Shown here: piece by piece, positions 20,328 to 26,822 of the stretch
How positions within the stretch are numbered: position 1 is the first letter of the stretch
How the letters are laid out: the number at the start of each line of letters is the position of its first letter
Source of the DNA: a virus
Direction: 5' to 3' (one strand)
Virus record (IMG/VR): IMGVR_UViG_3300033156_000263
Span: 1 to 27,256 of that record
Length of the DNA stretch: 27,256 nucleotides
Translations under genes and position numbers: made by a program
Notes under the pieces: generated by a model
What the model was told of the DNA's origin: nothing
Databases searched by the model: none
Seen by the model: only the letters and a program-made list of their open reading frames with translations

Positions 20328-21257
20328 TCACTTCCTTAATGGCATAACTACATATAAATACCGCGGATCTATTAGCGAATTTATTTGGACTGGTTTGGTT
20401 GGATCAATGAAGGTTAATTCTACATCTTCGCCTTCTATTTGCTGAACAGCTTCAGTTATGAATCTTGGGTTAAAAGCTATGGCTATATCTTCACCGAACT
20501 TTTGAATTTCCAATTCTTCATGCGCTTCGCCATAGTCCTGGCTTTTACTTTCAATATGCAGGATATTATCAAAAATCTTGAATTCTACTCTTTCATCACT
20601 TAACCGCGCGGTTATCGCTGCCCTTTTAATAGCTTCAAGTAAGCCATATTTGTTTACAATAACTTGGGTTTTATACTTAGTTGGGATAACTTTTTCGTAG
20701 TCAGGAAACTCAGCTTCAATAACTCTTACTATGACTTGTGTATTATCAGATTGAAAGCCAACCTTAGCACCGTCGAAAACTACTGTGATGTAGTAATCAC
20801 ATGAATCCAAAATTTTCTGTAATTCCTTCATGCTTTTCAAGGACAGCAGGAATGAAAATTCCTCATCGCTTTCAATTTCTCTATCTATGTATCCAAGCTT
20901 AAAACCATCAGCAGCCACCAATCGGAGATTAGGACCGTTGAACTGCCACAGAACACCATTAAGATTTCGCATATATTTATCAGTCGCGGCACAGAATATA
21001 ACCTTATCAATCATATTTTTGATTTTATTTACACTAAGAGTAACCTTATATCCTGTATCACTTGCGGGCTGGAAATCTGGAAATTCATCGCCCCGGATTG
21101 TATTGAGGTTGAAACGTGATTTGTTAGCCTTAATTTCAACCGTATTGCCATTGTAGTTGATTTCTATTTCACCTTCTGGAAGGCTTTTTACAACCTTTGA
21201 AATTAATTTTGCATCGATTATGAAACTACTTTCTTCTTCAGCTTCAATATCAACCAC
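20328..21257 (-). CDS. dnaN: DNA polymerase sliding clamp (beta), N-terminally truncated
   Basis: This is a clear homologue of the bacterial beta clamp, with blocks such as KSRFNLNTIRGDEFPDF, MRNLNGVLWQFNGPNLRLVA, SFLLSLKSMKELQKIL and IAFNPRFITEAVQQIEG, and the C-terminus YLYVVMPLRK. Bacterial clamps have about 366 residues and this frame has only 309 from GTG 21257. Domains 2 and 3 are complete, but domain 1 lacks about its first 55 residues. The upstream sequence shows that the same frame continues with conserved-looking protein (EIGFREETAIKHVV) back to a stop at 21296-21294. A well-placed ATG at 21304 with GAGGAGGT leads only to a 13-codon frame. This looks like an internal deletion that left a frame jump. 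GTG 21257 has no ribosome site. The gene may be a remnant or may encode a clamp fragment. Confidence 0.85.
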   Translation of the reverse strand: MVDIEAEEESSFIIDAKLISKVVKSLPEGEIEINYNGNTVEIKANKSRFNLNTIRGDEFPDFQPASDTGYKVTLSVNKIKNMIDKVIFCAATDKYMRNLNGVLWQFNGPNLRLVAADGFKLGYIDREIESDEEFSFLLSLKSMKELQKILDSCDYYITVVFDGAKVGFQSDNTQVIVRVIEAEFPDYEKVIPTKYKTQVIVNKYGLLEAIKRAAITARLSDERVEFKIFDNILHIESKSQDYGEAHEELEIQKFGEDIAIAFNPRFITEAVQQIEGEDVELTFIDPTKPVQINSLIDPRYLYVVMPLRK

Positions 21258-21304: not shown

Positions 21305-21510
21305 TTCAATACCTCCTCAAGCATTCTTTTTACTTTCTCAACCTTTGTCTTATTGAAAAACGTGATTGAATTTTCTATCGGATCAAATCTATAATCAGCT
21401 TCAAAGCCGTAATAAGCCTCTATTTCTCGCCTCAAAAGATCAAGATCGTATTCATCGCTCTCGTCAAAAAGATCTATCCTATTTCTGCTCACCTCAACAT
21501 AAATTTTCAT
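21301..21510 (-). CDS. Small protein between SSB and clamp, unknown (69 residues)
   Basis: The gene starts at ATG 21510, overlapping the SSB stop by 4 nt, and ends with TGA overlapping the clamp ATG at 21304, so it is coupled on both sides. The product is a beta-alpha-beta-alpha-like domain: MKIYVEVSRNRIDLFDESDE, then DLDLLRREIEAYYGFEADYR, then SITFFNKTKVEKVKRMLEEV. The regular alternation suggests a small ferredoxin-like fold. I do not recognise the family. Position between two replication-factor genes suggests a replication accessory role. Confidence 0.65.
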   Translation of the reverse strand: MKIYVEVSRNRIDLFDESDEYDLDLLRREIEAYYGFEADYRFDPIENSITFFNKTKVEKVKRMLEEVLK

Positions 21511-21989
21511 TTTTCAATCACCTCCAGATCTTCAGAAACGAATATCTTTCTTTCATCAAGTTCCTGGATTATCTCTAAAGGTAAATCGGTTCTTTGAGCT
21601 ATCTTATAATTTGGAAGGCCTTTACTCTTATACTTCAAAGCGAAAGGAATCTCGTCATCAACGACTTCGGGCTCTTCAATATCCTCGTTTTGTCCAGCAG
21701 CTTTCGGGGTAAGAATCCGGATTTTATTCAGCCAGATATTCATGTATTTTCGGCCATTGGTTTCAGTTATTTTCGGAACACCTTCAACAAAAACGAGATC
21801 ACCGACATCAAGCTCATTCAAAAGCCATTCTTGCGCGGTGTCGACATAATACCAGTCCGTAAATTTTGTTTTATTTCTATATCTATTCACAGCCACGGAA
21901 AAAGAAACGATTTGCTTGCCGTTCGGAGTAAAACGCGATTTGATATTCCCAACATGGCCAATTAGATAAATCTTTGCGAAATTAGGCAC
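21507..21989 (-). CDS. ssb: Single-stranded DNA-binding protein (SSB)
   Basis: This 160-residue protein starts at GTG 21989 after AGAGGTGAT. Residues 4-95 form the SSB OB-fold: KIYLIGHVGNIKSRFTPNGK, SFSVAVNRYR, then DWYYVDTAQEWLLNELDVGD, VFVEGVPKI and YMNIWLNKIRIL. It covers single-stranded DNA during replication and recombination and complements the exonuclease and annealing protein encoded upstream. The acidic tail with the conserved tip motif DDEIPF is present at residues 111-116 but is not terminal. A further 44 residues follow (ALKYKSKGLPNYK onward). In most SSBs that tip ends the chain and recruits partner enzymes, so this is unusual. Confidence 0.92.
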   Translation of the reverse strand: MPNFAKIYLIGHVGNIKSRFTPNGKQIVSFSVAVNRYRNKTKFTDWYYVDTAQEWLLNELDVGDLVFVEGVPKITETNGRKYMNIWLNKIRILTPKAAGQNEDIEEPEVVDDEIPFALKYKSKGLPNYKIAQRTDLPLEIIQELDERKIFVSEDLEVIEK

Positions 21990-22590: not shown

Positions 22591-23121
22591 TCACCTCCTT
22601 TCAATGAGTTTCCCAATAAGCTCATGAATGATTCGAATTGACATTCTAAGACGCTCAGCTAAAAGCTGGCTGTAAGCTGGTGAATGTTCTTTATGGAAGT
22701 AATTGACAATCATGTCAATGTTTTCCGGGGTTGCAATTGTATCCAGAAAGGCTTCAACTCTTTCTGCCATTTTCTTCGCTATCACATCAGGATTTGCAGT
22801 AAGTACAATCGGCCTGTCATCTTCTTCTTCCTCGTCTTCATCATCCAAATCATCAAAATCATCGAAATCGTCATCATCGCTGTCATTGATAGGTTTTGGT
22901 ATAGGCGGGCCTGGGTAAGTTTCGATGTTAACATCTTCGTCATCCTTGGTTAATTCGTTTGACAAATTAGAGGAAGAATTGAAATTTTTCACTTCTTCCC
23001 CTTGTGTTACGATTTGATAAACGCGTTTGGGTGTAATTCCAAATTTCTCTGCTATTTCTTCTCTCGTATAATTCCCGCTTTCATACATATAATTTATGAG
23101 TTTCTTTTTCATATTCAACAC
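22591..23121 (-). CDS. HTH protein with long acidic linker
   Basis: A GTG at 23121 or ATG at 23112 (residue 4) begins the gene; neither has a good ribosome site, and the first 41 nt overlap the ParB-like gene, implying coupling. Residues about 10-40 form a helix-turn-helix: LINYMYESGNYTREEIAEKF, then GITPKRVYQIV. Residues about 55-100 form a strongly acidic, repetitive tract (SDDDDFDDFDDLDDEDEEEE). The last 75 residues are helical and contain DVIAKKMAERVEAFLDTI and YSQLLAERLRMSIRIIHELI. This looks like a DNA-binding domain joined by a disordered acidic linker to a helical domain, perhaps a regulator or replication accessory. The family is unknown. Confidence 0.7.
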   Translation of the reverse strand: MLNMKKKLINYMYESGNYTREEIAEKFGITPKRVYQIVTQGEEVKNFNSSSNLSNELTKDDEDVNIETYPGPPIPKPINDSDDDDFDDFDDLDDEDEEEEDDRPIVLTANPDVIAKKMAERVEAFLDTIATPENIDMIVNYFHKEHSPAYSQLLAERLRMSIRIIHELIGKLIERR

Positions 23122-23554
23122 CGTTTTCTGAACTCAATTCATTAATCCAGTTGTAGATCGTTCTTTTCGTGACTCCAAGCCTTTCAGCTAATTCTTCAGG
23201 ATTAATCTTGCCTTCAACTTTTAAAAAGTACTCTTCAAACATTTTTTTGATATCTTTCTTTTTGAGAGGAAGGCCGTGCATGGAGTTTCTATAAATAGCT
23301 TCGATCCATTCAAATTCTTCGGGGATGTCGATAAACTCAACCGAGATATCCAAAAATCCCAACGCTTTCGTGGCACGATATCTGTGGTATCCATCTATAA
23401 GGTGCATCGTGCGTTTGTTCACTACAATTGGTGGAAATTTGACACCATCTTCGATAAGTTCCTTGTATTCATGGATCTTGTTATAATCAGGTGATTCACG
23501 CGGGTAAATTTTGTCATTAATAACAATCTCATCAATCTCAACAAACTCACTCAT
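23081..23554 (-). CDS. ParB-like (ParB N-domain) protein with C-terminal HTH
   Basis: This 157-residue protein starts at ATG 23554 after GGGAGGGT. Residues about 15-80 match the ParB/Srx-type N-terminal domain: YPRESPDYNKIHEYKELIED, then FPPIVVNKRTMHLIDGYHRY, with the G-x-H-R box. Residues about 120-145 form a helix-turn-helix (INPEELAERLGVTKRTIYNW). ParB-domain proteins hydrolyse CTP to spread on DNA, act as nucleases or act as regulators. A single phage copy without ParA usually serves as a DNA-binding regulator. No ParA gene is visible. It overlaps the next gene by 41 nt, suggesting the two HTH proteins are made together. Confidence 0.82.
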   Translation of the reverse strand: MSEFVEIDEIVINDKIYPRESPDYNKIHEYKELIEDGVKFPPIVVNKRTMHLIDGYHRYRATKALGFLDISVEFIDIPEEFEWIEAIYRNSMHGLPLKKKDIKKMFEEYFLKVEGKINPEELAERLGVTKRTIYNWINELSSENGVEYEKETHKLYV

Positions 23555-23952: not shown

Positions 23953-24342
23953 TTAGCTTCCTGAAGTAATCCGGAACGTCATTGCCAATAGGGACGCTCC
24001 TTTTTTCAGAATTTCCTCAAGATCATCCCTTCGTTTGGTAGGTGAGCGGTTATCATATTTTCCTTCAAGAACCTTTAAGAAGTTGCTCGGCCGTACTAAC
24101 CACTCAAAATCGGCAATAAAGGGTTTACGGTTGCCGTAATCAGCCCGCCCGGTGAGAAAATCAGACGCTTCAACACGCTTAAAGAATTGCTCCCAGAATT
24201 GCAGTTCTGGGTATTCTTTCCAGCGTGCGCGTATGTATTTCTTTCGGGTATCACTTAACTTGACAACCTTAGGAAGAGAAGGACAGTATTTGTGATATAG
24301 ATCAACGGGATGTAGTTGACTCTTTAGAGTCAACAGGCACAT
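23953..24342 (-). CDS. Replication initiator, C-terminal part in a second frame
   Basis: This 129-residue frame begins at ATG 24342, within a 6-bp hairpin and with no ribosome site, and overlaps the previous frame by 41 nt. Its sequence matches the C-terminal domain commonly fused to phage DnaD-type initiators: CPSLPKVVKLSDTRKKYIRA, then FWEQFFKRVEASDFLTGR, then ADFEWLVRPSNFLKVLEGKY. In most phages this domain continues from the N-terminal initiator part in one chain. Here the frame is +1 relative to the upstream gene. The normal product could come from a +1 shift, from re-initiation, or the gene may be truly split. A single-base sequence error would also explain it. Confidence 0.75.
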   Translation of the reverse strand: MCLLTLKSQLHPVDLYHKYCPSLPKVVKLSDTRKKYIRARWKEYPELQFWEQFFKRVEASDFLTGRADYGNRKPFIADFEWLVRPSNFLKVLEGKYDNRSPTKRRDDLEEILKKGASLLAMTFRITSGS

Positions 24343-24895
24343 CGTTAGATGTGTCTAAATTTCTTTTTGTGTCAAAGTACCCACTACTATCATCTCTATA
24401 TATATTTTCTTTTTCTTTTTGTTTTTCTTTTTCTTTTTCCGGTAGTCTATCCATACTGTATGGATAGTCTATCGATACACTATCGATAGTGTATCCATAG
24501 TCTATGAATACGTTTCTAATTTCATCGGTTAACGAGTTCCAGAAATATGCTAAAAGCTTTTTGGACTTTACATTTTCGAGATCCTTGATGATGGTTCGAA
24601 TTACTTTAGGGCTATTGCTCCAATTGTATTTAATCCAGTTCACCACAAAGATCTCAGAGGTCTCTGGATCGTAGTGGATTTTTCCCATCTCTGTGAAGGC
24701 ATTAATTAATTTCTCGATTGTTTCTATGTGATATCCTGTTTCAAATGCCATAAGTTTTTTTGAAACTTCGTATATTCCAACTTGTGTGGTGTGTGGATTT
24801 GTTAACAGATAAAGGAAGAAATATTTTTGTTCCGGAGTAAGATCTAAAACCTCGCTATCTTGCCAGAACGAAACATGAACAAATCGATATTTCAT
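24302..24895 (-). CDS. Phage replication initiator, N-terminal part (replisome organiser)
   Basis: This 197-residue protein starts at ATG 24895 after GAGGTGA. Residues about 5-110 match the N-terminal domain of phage replisome organisers: RFVHVSFWQDSEVLDLTPEQ, then KYFFLYLLTNPHTTQVGIYE, then FETGYHIETIEKLI, a winged-helix origin-binding domain. The following part (about 130-170) is encoded by tandem 11-bp repeats and reads IDYGYTIDSVS, then IDYPYSMDRLP, then a run of K and E. These repeats probably form the origin that the protein binds, as in lambda O and lactococcal phages. The frame ends at TGA 24302, where the C-terminal domain continues in another frame. The organiser would recruit the helicase via the downstream zinc-domain protein. 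Confidence 0.85.
   Translation of the reverse strand: MKYRFVHVSFWQDSEVLDLTPEQKYFFLYLLTNPHTTQVGIYEVSKKLMAFETGYHIETIEKLINAFTEMGKIHYDPETSEIFVVNWIKYNWSNSPKVIRTIIKDLENVKSKKLLAYFWNSLTDEIRNVFIDYGYTIDSVSIDYPYSMDRLPEKEKEKQKEKENIYRDDSSGYFDTKRNLDTSNDVPVDSKESTTSR
24315..24334 (-). promoter_or_regulatory. Perfect hairpin at initiator frame junction
   Basis: A 9-bp perfect inverted repeat (GTTGACTCT and AGAGTCAAC) with a 2-nt loop lies inside the 41-nt overlap of the two initiator frames. The loop region of the transcript includes AAAG, where a +1 slip on lysine codons is conceivable. Confidence 0.6.
24338..24353 (-). promoter_or_regulatory. Perfect hairpin containing the second-frame ATG
   Basis: A 6-bp stem CACATC / GATGTG with a GTTA loop (plus reading) contains the ATG at 24342 of the second frame in its stem, which would restrict independent initiation. 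It lies 4 nt from the 9-bp hairpin. Confidence 0.55.
24404..24441. other. Purine/pyrimidine-strand-biased A/T-rich tract beside repeats
   Basis: The minus strand is nearly pure purine here, built from GAAAAA units, and ends in a TATATATA-like stretch; the coded protein is EKEKEKQKEKEN. It directly adjoins the 11-bp repeats, the same order as iterons and A-rich region in lambda ori, so it is a candidate unwinding element. Confidence 0.6.
24443..24508. repeat. Six tandem 11-bp repeats, candidate replication origin
   Basis: Six contiguous 11-bp units begin at 24443, 24454, 24465, 24476, 24487 and 24498. They read TAGTCTATCCA, TACTGTATGGA, TAGTCTATCGA, TACACTATCGA, TAGTGTATCCA and TAGTCTATGAA. 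Positions 1, 2, 6, 7, 8 and 11 are invariant. Two perfect palindromes lie inside: arms CTATCCATAC / GTATGGATAG around 24457, and GATACACTATC / GATAGTGTATC at 24474-24495. One unit is about one DNA turn. The array sits within the initiator gene, as phage origins often do. Confidence 0.8.
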
Positions 24896-24990: not shown

Positions 24991-25758
24991 TTATTCATTA
25001 GGGGGGATAGTGGGTTTGTCATCCAACAGTTCGCGAATATCTTCTACGGGTTCTTTAATTGGCTCAATTGGTGGATAAAGTGGTTTATTCTCAAATTCAT
25101 CAAAGATCTCGTCAGAAGCTCCTATAGGAAATGCTCTTCGTAGTGCCCTTCTCATCGCTTTTGTCCTCGCTTTTTCGCGGGGATCATCGGAATATACCCT
25201 TGGATTTGGCTTTGCTGAGGCTATTCCTTCGTATGTTCCTGTATCGGTTTCGACAATACATTTGGAAGTCCAGCCGTCGCCTTCTTGTTTGTCTTCCCAC
25301 TTGATTGTCTTGAGTTTTCCTGAATTTCTCGCATAATAAAGGAATCCGTCAGCTTTGACATAAATTTGATTGTCGACAGGGATGACATGAATAATCGGGC
25401 GAAGGCCATAATCTATTTCCATTCGTGCCATTTCCAGGAGTATGAGCATTACATCGCTTTCTTTGATTCCTCGATCTTTTTCAACCATCATTTGCCATAC
25501 GCGCCTTGCTATACCGAACTTGATATATTCGTATACTTTTGCCTTTACGAGTCCTTCATAGGTGAGAAGATCAACCTCGCCGTATGTCGTTTGATGCTTT
25601 AATGTTTTCATGCTTTCTTGAAGGCTCTCAATGTTCGCGTTGTATCCAATAGCTTCTAAAAATTGTCCAAGGCTTTCAGCTTTAAATGGATTTATCGTCT
25701 TTTCTTTTTCGTTATTGTTCACCACAGGTTTCTTTAAAATCGTTTTATTCTCACTCAT
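24991..25758 (-). CDS. Single-strand annealing recombinase (RecT/Erf/Rad52-type)
   Basis: This 255-residue protein starts at ATG 25758, overlapping the exonuclease stop by 4 nt, after GGAGGCGAAA. The centre (about residues 60-215) looks like a phage annealing protein core: LLTYEGLVKAKVYEYIKFGI, DNQIYVKADGFLYYARNSGK, GDGWTSKCIVETDTGTYEGI and then KARTKAMRRALRRAFPIGAS, a basic helix for DNA binding. The acidic, proline-rich C-terminal 40 residues (IEPIKEPVEDIRELLDDKP) may bind SSB or partners. It is coupled to a RecB-like exonuclease, the Red-like pairing of exonuclease and annealing protein. The exact subfamily is not settled from motifs alone. A hairpin terminator follows. Confidence 0.75.
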   Translation of the reverse strand: MSENKTILKKPVVNNNEKEKTINPFKAESLGQFLEAIGYNANIESLQESMKTLKHQTTYGEVDLLTYEGLVKAKVYEYIKFGIARRVWQMMVEKDRGIKESDVMLILLEMARMEIDYGLRPIIHVIPVDNQIYVKADGFLYYARNSGKLKTIKWEDKQEGDGWTSKCIVETDTGTYEGIASAKPNPRVYSDDPREKARTKAMRRALRRAFPIGASDEIFDEFENKPLYPPIEPIKEPVEDIRELLDDKPTIPPNE

Positions 25759-26822
25759 TGTTTCGCCTCCTCAAATTTAAAAGTCTTTCTCTTTCGGGTC
25801 TCGAGGTAATCGGAAAACTCATCCTTGAAAGGCTTTAATGTCTTAATATCAAGGCTGAAGTATTCCAGGGGATCATCACCAATTTGGTTAACATACTCCC
25901 AGGCTTTAGTAGCAAGTTCTTTTTTATTTACCCCTCGTTTGGTTGTTAAGTATTGCGAATATTCAAGTTTGTACACCCCATCGCGAAATTTCACTTTTCC
26001 GGAATCTTTTTGTTCAACATATCCGTTGAGTGCCTTTTTGTATCGTTTTGTCTTCTCTTCTAAAACTTGTATTGTCTTGAAAACTTCCTCGGCTTCTTGG
26101 TCGTTTCTAATTGTTGGAATATCTTTCGCTTCGATGGATTCAACAAGAGGGCATTGACTAACATACGAGCAGTATGCACAGTGCATTCCAGGGGTAGGAT
26201 CGAATTTCTGATCGTTTTCAAGCTTTCGAATGATTTTCCAGATCTTTCTGGCTGTTATTTCCATCTCATCCTCATCAACTTCAAATTCGAGAAGATCACC
26301 CGAGGAAAGAAGTATGTATCCTGCTTTGTTGACGGGTTTCTTTAAAATGCCGGATATTGCATAAGCGTATAACATAACCTGAAACATTGAGGGTTTGCTG
26401 TGGCCTGTTTTCCAATCCCAGACTTGATAGGATTGGCCATCGGTAGTGATTAAGTCCACAACGCCCCTTAAAAAGGCATTTTCATCGTTAAAACTAACTA
26501 CATTGAAATACTCGTCAATTGCAAATTTGGTTTCAATCCCAACTATTTGGCCCAGATTCTTTGAATATTTAAGGGCAGTAAGAACCTTTATTTTTGCTTC
26601 TTCTATCTGCTCATACGGCAGATCGCTGAGTGTTTCCTGCCAATCTTGTCCTTTGAGGGCTTTCGATATCGCTTCGTGAACCTTTGATCCAAAAAATCCA
26701 GCATCTTCAATTATTTCTGGGATTTTTTCGATGTATTTGAAGTAAAAGCGTCTTGGGCATCTTTCGTATTCGGTAAGCCTTGACATTGAATAAGGCCTTA
26801 AAGATGTAGTAGTTATATTCAT
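25755..26822 (-). CDS. PD-(D/E)XK exonuclease, RecB/Cas4-like with predicted Fe-S cluster
   Basis: This 355-residue protein starts at ATG 26822, overlapping the upstream stop by 4 nt. The nuclease signature is complete: GSKVHEA (H49), GVVDLI (D123), WDWKTG (D136, K138) and FQVMLYAYAI (Q148, Y152). Four cysteines, C22 in YERCPRRF and C215-x2-C218-x5-C224, match the arrangement that holds a 4Fe-4S cluster in AddB and Cas4. The C-terminal part is helical. It would resect double-stranded ends to make 3' single strands for the annealing protein encoded next. Cas4-like activity in CRISPR adaptation is unlikely, because no Cas1/Cas2 or array is present. The enzyme class is secure and the recombination role comes from context. 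Confidence 0.9.
   Translation of the reverse strand: MNITTTSLRPYSMSRLTEYERCPRRFYFKYIEKIPEIIEDAGFFGSKVHEAISKALKGQDWQETLSDLPYEQIEEAKIKVLTALKYSKNLGQIVGIETKFAIDEYFNVVSFNDENAFLRGVVDLITTDGQSYQVWDWKTGHSKPSMFQVMLYAYAISGILKKPVNKAGYILLSSGDLLEFEVDEDEMEITARKIWKIIRKLENDQKFDPTPGMHCAYCSYVSQCPLVESIEAKDIPTIRNDQEAEEVFKTIQVLEEKTKRYKKALNGYVEQKDSGKVKFRDGVYKLEYSQYLTTKRGVNKKELATKAWEYVNQIGDDPLEYFSLDIKTLKPFKDEFSDYLETRKRKTFKFEEAKQ

Follow-up and report, generated by a model that had tools for sequence, protein, structure and literature searches.

A putative replication origin of 11-bp iterons within the linker of a phage initiator gene

Origins of replication in the phages and prophages of Bacillota have, to our knowledge, seldom been mapped. 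The locus described here raises the question of what role is played by six short tandem repeats that lie within the coding sequence of a putative phage initiator, where they could matter either as DNA or as protein. They are found in a 27,256-nt stretch of viral DNA, the whole of which is called the window hereafter.

The array and the initiator gene

On the minus strand of the window, the array consists of six 11-bp units, TTCATAGACTA, TGGATACACTA, TCGATAGTGTA, TCGATAGACTA, TCCATACAGTA and TGGATAGACTA, which have six invariant columns in common (Table 1). Two perfect palindromes, one of 22 nt (24474-24495) and one of 21 nt (24447-24467), are present, and the window holds no other palindrome of at least 18 nt. 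The numbers of units, invariant positions and palindromic bases are all as given in an earlier note on this DNA, and shuffled sequences never match them: 300 dinucleotide shuffles of the window never gave more than three invariant columns, compared with the six observed, or more than 33 lag-11 identities per 55, compared with 39 per 55. Periods of 11 bp and 22 bp were also recovered at the array when TRF was run on the window. Written as TATNNATA followed by NNN, the array comprises six cores (24448-24510), and a scan of the whole window for two such units in succession gave five matches against 0.10 expected, all of them inside the array, with no second two-unit site found anywhere outside it. 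The array lies approximately 385 bp into the minus-strand ORF-N, in the linker behind the N domain. This location and the 11-bp spacing bear out the previous proposal of an iteron array within the initiator gene and in helical phase.

Table 1. Features of the initiator locus, with positions numbered along the window.
Feature	Position	Strand	Remarks
Six 11-bp iterons, TATNNATA-SNS pattern	24443..24510	(-)	Cores at 24448, 24459, 24470, 24481, 24492, 24503
A-rich, T-poor tract, (GAAAAA)n then TATATATA on the coding strand	24395..24439	(-)	TRF period 6 at 24405-24439
Inverted repeat GTTGACTC-TAAA-GAGTCAAC	24315..24334	(-)	3' of the A tract
ORF-N, N-terminal part of the putative phage initiator (197 aa), DNA-binding domain and linker	24302..24895	(-)	phrog_6251, phrog_1701 matches
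Predicted winged-helix domain, residues 17-87	24635..24847	(-)	AlphaFold2 mean pLDDT 93
ORF-C, putative initiator C-terminal domain, +1 frame	23953..24342	(-)	Conserved part about 24046-24306

The assignment of ORF-N to phage initiators comes from its matches to phrog_6251 (replisome organizer; residues 2-164, E 3.8e-53) and phrog_1701 (DnaD-like helicase loader; residues 1-167, E 3.7e-40), and it has many relatives with 42-65% identity. The AlphaFold2 model of its N domain is a winged helix with extra helices. The best structural matches of this model are CRP/LexA-type winged helices (Z up to 9.5 over ~66 residues), and the replication initiators among the matches listed are RepA 4pql, 4pt7 and 4pta (Z 7.8-8.5 over 85-86 residues), all scores being in a range explicable by the common arrangement alone. 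ORF-C matches phrog_19658 (replication initiation protein, E 6.7e-37, profile positions 169-259 of 283) and phrog_345 (O-like, E 1.4e-23), so that its matches are confined to the last third of the initiator proteins of phages. Its predicted fold had no match above noise in the PDB, and the sequence profiles of the N and C domains retrieved no convincing solved relative.

The C-terminal domains differ across the family. Among 73 relatives, DnaD_dom is found at the C terminus in 43 and TIGR02220 in 8, and other relatives have the O-like type; DnaD_dom was not found in the two initiator proteins of the window, whose C domain is O-like, or in its relative L027. The N domain, array and A-rich tract thus form a module joined to varied C domains. 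In several relatives, the genes immediately downstream of the initiator encode a helicase or a helicase loader. Marinitoga camini viruses 1 and 2 (L021 and L022) have a near-identical C domain and differing N parts and repeats, so that initiator modules are also exchanged at the origin region, which acts as a joint between them.

In the window, the initiator is split, with ORF-N and ORF-C in different frames and overlapping by 41 nt (24302-24342), and a VPYQKI segment that is conserved ahead of the C domain in relatives is absent. In L027, the closest relative with both halves, the N and C domains form a single ORF of 305 residues, and they are likewise fused in L028. The C domain is in another frame in L013 and L176 too, showing that splits recur, and each of these copies, including that of the window, could be damaged. 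The split in the window represents either two proteins, or a frameshift, or a defective or misassembled copy in this 27,256-base IMG/VR record. Expression of the second part by reinitiation at the overlapping ATG, or a frameshift inside the 41-nt overlap, is possible. Slippage on the A tract is an unlikely way of fusing them, because a TAG stop is located in the C frame between the tract and the overlap.

Several other genes of the window are worth describing. A phage DNA polymerase III beta sliding clamp (20328-21257, Pfam E 7.4e-28) adjoins an SSB-like gene (21507-21989), and a small ParB-like/HTH protein (23081-23554) is encoded just downstream of the initiator genes. On the other side, a PD-(D/E)XK/Cas4-like exonuclease (25755-26822, in the region 24991-26822) is followed by a protein of 255 aa that matched no profile and is possibly the annealing partner of the exonuclease.

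The adjoining tract, the iteron types and the proposed function

The array is followed by an A-rich, T-poor tract. In the 48 nt past the array, the coding strand of 113 relatives has A 0.69 and T 0.07, compared with A 0.38 and T 0.28 in the region coding for the N domain and with 38% A and 26% T farther downstream. Codons ending in A are favored in the tract (GAA 732 vs GAG 40, compared with GAA 728 vs GAG 379 in the N domain), and the residues that it encodes differ among relatives (KE, NK, N runs, EEQ). As the A-rich composition is kept while the peptide changes, the tract is probably an unwinding and helicase-loading segment selected as DNA.

The inverted repeat located beyond this tract is not equaled in any of 100 shuffles, and the z of its DNA fold is -4.7. 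Hairpins with other stem sequences are found at the equivalent place in L027, L028 and L045. More generally, hairpins at p <=0.05 occur in the 120 nt ahead of a window-type C domain in 27 of 73 loci, compared with control rates of 3% within the C domain and 5% in the N region, and with 13% in relatives that share the N domain, whatever their C domain. A search for known RNA elements in Rfam gave no match. In L027, L028, L042, L045, L049, L050, L072, L083 and L099, the stretch from the A-rich tract to the O-like C domain contains hairpins of variable stem, and four-base loops closed by C-G (TAAC, TGAC, TTAC, TAAA, of a TNAM type) recur among them, as read by eye from the list.

The family was represented by 190 loci with related N domains, from which 134 linkers less than 90% alike were retained. 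The linkers without a TATNNATA array often hold another repeat at the equivalent place, namely ACGATACG with a spacing of 11-12 bp or, spaced by 11 bp, AGCCCCTT (or its complement) or GTGTCAACA (two loci). The four iteron types were defined post hoc by reading the sequences, and 19 of the 134 linkers show none of them. On the N-domain tree (109 columns, few well-supported forks), the iteron labels need 21 changes, compared with 40.9 when shuffled (0 of 200 shuffles as low), and the ACGATACG type needs four, compared with 12.6. The lag spectra within types are at 11 (type 1), 12 (type 2) and 10-11 (type 3). That the iteron type tracks the N domain is expected if this domain reads the site. In seven type-1 phages (L005, L113, L155, L158, L161, L162, and L166), two iteron blocks surround an insert, with 82 bp between core pairs and no obvious phase.

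Considered together, the array and its position, the A-rich tract, the predicted fold of the N domain and the clustering of iterons on its tree, as well as the DNA-level conservation and frame independence treated below, argue strongly that the array is a theta-type replication origin of the phage, located within the linker of its own initiator gene. The matches to initiator families, the helicase and loader genes downstream and the precedents of lambda, SPP1 and pSK41 point in the same direction, and we consider this reading very probable. The winged-helix N domain would bind the 11-bp iterons, with one protomer or dimer per helical turn, and the bound protomers would all lie on one face of the DNA in a nucleoprotein row similar to the lambda O-some. 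Strain from this row could melt the adjoining A-rich tract, after which the C-terminal domain would recruit the replicative helicase or a helicase loader, and the hairpin downstream of the tract may mark or limit the opened region.

Autoregulation is frequent among initiators, and the array could alternatively be chiefly an operator, where the bound initiator would regulate the transcription of its own gene or operon. Going by the predicted fold, the domain that would bind the array is of a matching kind. Nevertheless, it lies some 385 bp inside the gene and away from the promoter, an operator has no need of the conserved A-rich tract that follows, and there is no second two-unit site in the window, which makes this explanation improbable. 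Even less probable is a partition or centromere-like site for the nearby ParB-like protein (phrog_1033, E 2.7e-10), the gene of which lies 0.9 kb from the array, as no parB is annotated near the equivalent array among the annotated relatives examined and the iteron type clusters on the initiator tree instead.

Unit symmetry and the level of selection

In the consensus of 350 units, TAT-NN-ATA precedes a spacer of three bases, the first and last of which are C or G. The corresponding degenerate unit, TATSSATA-SNS, reads identically on both strands. From this self-complementarity come the palindromes of 21 and 22 nt in the window, which arise when the variable bases of neighboring units are complementary by chance. 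In 64 related arrays of at least three units, the longest palindrome has a mean length of 10.4, a value that does not change when units are permuted among arrays (10.4 +/- 0.4), and palindromes of at least 21 nt are present in 2 of the 64, compared with 2.1 expected from the permutation. The earlier note had regarded the palindromes as a feature in their own right, which is not borne out: the unit permutation rules them out as a conserved feature of the family, and they appear to be incidental by-products of unit symmetry. A function of the palindromes per se, as cruciforms or as hairpins in single-stranded DNA, is accordingly most doubtful; the single-stranded fold of the window array is far better than that of shuffles (z -6.0), but the agreement of palindrome lengths with permuted units in the related arrays indicates no selection across the family.

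The other question is whether the repeat is maintained as DNA or as peptide. The 11-residue protein repeat reported previously is present, and it is an arithmetic outcome of the array, because three 11-bp units make 33 nt. Among 5000 synonymous recodings of the window peptide, the lag-11 identity was reached by two and the lag-22 identity by none. The same comparison was carried out for the 134 linkers, each against random synonymous recodings of its own peptide with the codon usage of the family. Their lag-11 DNA identity is 0.388, compared with 0.323 in the recodings (z 23.7), with harmonics at lag 22 (z 14.4) and lag 33 (z 10.5), these z-scores being overstated as they ignore relatedness; lag 12 equals the background and lag 10 is a little under it. 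Exact TATNNATA cores number 300, compared with 62.9 +/- 6.3 in recodings, and there are 156, 72 and 30 core pairs with separations of 11, 22 and 33 bp, respectively, compared with 6.0, 1.9 and 0.9 expected.

A comparison by reading frame is less sensitive to kinship among the sequences than the recoding z-scores. Since three does not divide 11, the reading frame shifts from one unit to the next. Conservation of the six core bases amounts to 91-100% in every one of the three frames. The two middle bases vary by frame (mostly GG; GT, CT or CC; CG, AG or GG), in line with coding demand. From the recoding test and the retention of the core in all three frames, the DNA motif is primary, with the peptide adapting to it, and a row of sites spaced by one DNA turn is maintained as DNA in roughly a hundred phages and prophages of this family. 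Relatives that keep the peptide and lose the DNA repeat had been named beforehand as the outcome that would contradict the earlier note; the opposite was seen, with the recoding, core-pair and frame tests all favoring selection on DNA. That the protein repeat is selected, as a spacer or contact motif, with the DNA repeat secondary, is hardly credible even though the 11-residue repeat is seen again in relatives (IDYGYxIDTxSIDYGE), since a peptide repeat could force only a 33-bp period, eleven not being a multiple of three, and since most of the 11-bp signal is lost on recoding identical peptides and the core bases are held in all frames, so that both tests rule out peptide-level selection.

The locus clearly illustrates how a DNA signal can take precedence over protein sequence, one 8-bp core being kept in all three frames of one gene. 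The succession of TATNNATA at 11 bp and an A-rich tract is a pattern strong enough to locate origins in sequence data, and the presence of different sites beside related N domains makes initiator-iteron specificity testable. We tentatively raise the possibility that these origins of phages and prophages make up a large class not yet described, in which a single winged-helix initiator family would read iterons one helical turn apart and would have split into at least four iteron specificities as the site changed in step with the N domain, whole N-domain/origin modules would be exchanged between unrelated helicase-recruiting C domains, and the array would dictate the linker sequence.

Comparison with known origins

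The earlier suggestion of an undescribed origin type was too strong, because iterons and an A-rich tract in the linker of an initiator gene follow a known plan, that of lambda O, SPP1 gp38/oriL and the RepA_N plasmids. The lambda origin lies within O, where four iterons, each of 18 bp, are accompanied by 38 bp of AT-rich DNA (PMC3349717). The lambda O gene shares with the window a layout in which the DNA-binding part is N-terminal, the linker coding for the iterons and the A-rich tract come next, and the partner domain is C-terminal. In lambda, the A-rich tract reads AAAAGAAAAAAGAAAAG. The match of the window C domain to an O-like PHROG adds to this likeness, and in lambda an imperfect palindrome, read from the sequence, comes right after the A-rich tract, comparable to the inverted repeat of the window. 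The window has repeated sites in the initiator gene between the DNA-binding and C-terminal domains and an adjacent AT-rich tract, but not 18-bp iterons about two turns apart: the lambda iterons are 18 bp long and 20-24 bp apart, with periods of 23-24 and none of 11 in the O gene, whereas the six units of the window are spaced by 11 bp and have a symmetric core of 8 bp.

In SPP1, oriL consists of direct repeats inside gene 38, which encodes the gp38 replisome organizer, and an AT-rich unwinding element (PMC6316719). From this published description, it resembles the window in having repeats inside the initiator gene together with an AT-rich element.

In the RepA_N plasmids pSK41 and pTZ2162, a winged-helix N domain binds Rep boxes central in rep, and the C domain is genus-specific (PMC5703833). 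Replication can still be rescued in trans by a pSK41 initiator from which the origin-coded linker has been deleted in frame, the linker being dispensable as protein (PMC5703833), and semi-palindromic iterons converge on a poly-A tract in RepA_N replicons (PMC7145576). The window likewise has a predicted winged-helix N domain and origin-like repeats central in the gene. In contrast, the RepA_N iteron sequences differ from those of the window, and Pfam RepA_N (PF06970) matched neither the window protein nor any of the 48 relatives scanned, on which ground membership of that family was rejected. A search of a plasmid collection gave seven matches, none tied to a tested minireplicon.

The lactococcal replisome organizer Rep of TP901-1 also has repeats in the linker of its gene. 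However, their period of 15 bp, a multiple of three, keeps them in codon register, in contrast to the 11 bp of the window, and its N-terminal sequence is clearly unlike that of the window. A literature search, with most subscription journals outside its coverage, found no 11-bp iteron class of such kind. What appears to be new here, judging from the sequences compared, is the spacing of 11 bp, a degenerate core that is symmetric and the variety of iteron types within one initiator family, on a plan otherwise in common with lambda O, SPP1 oriL and the RepA_N plasmids.
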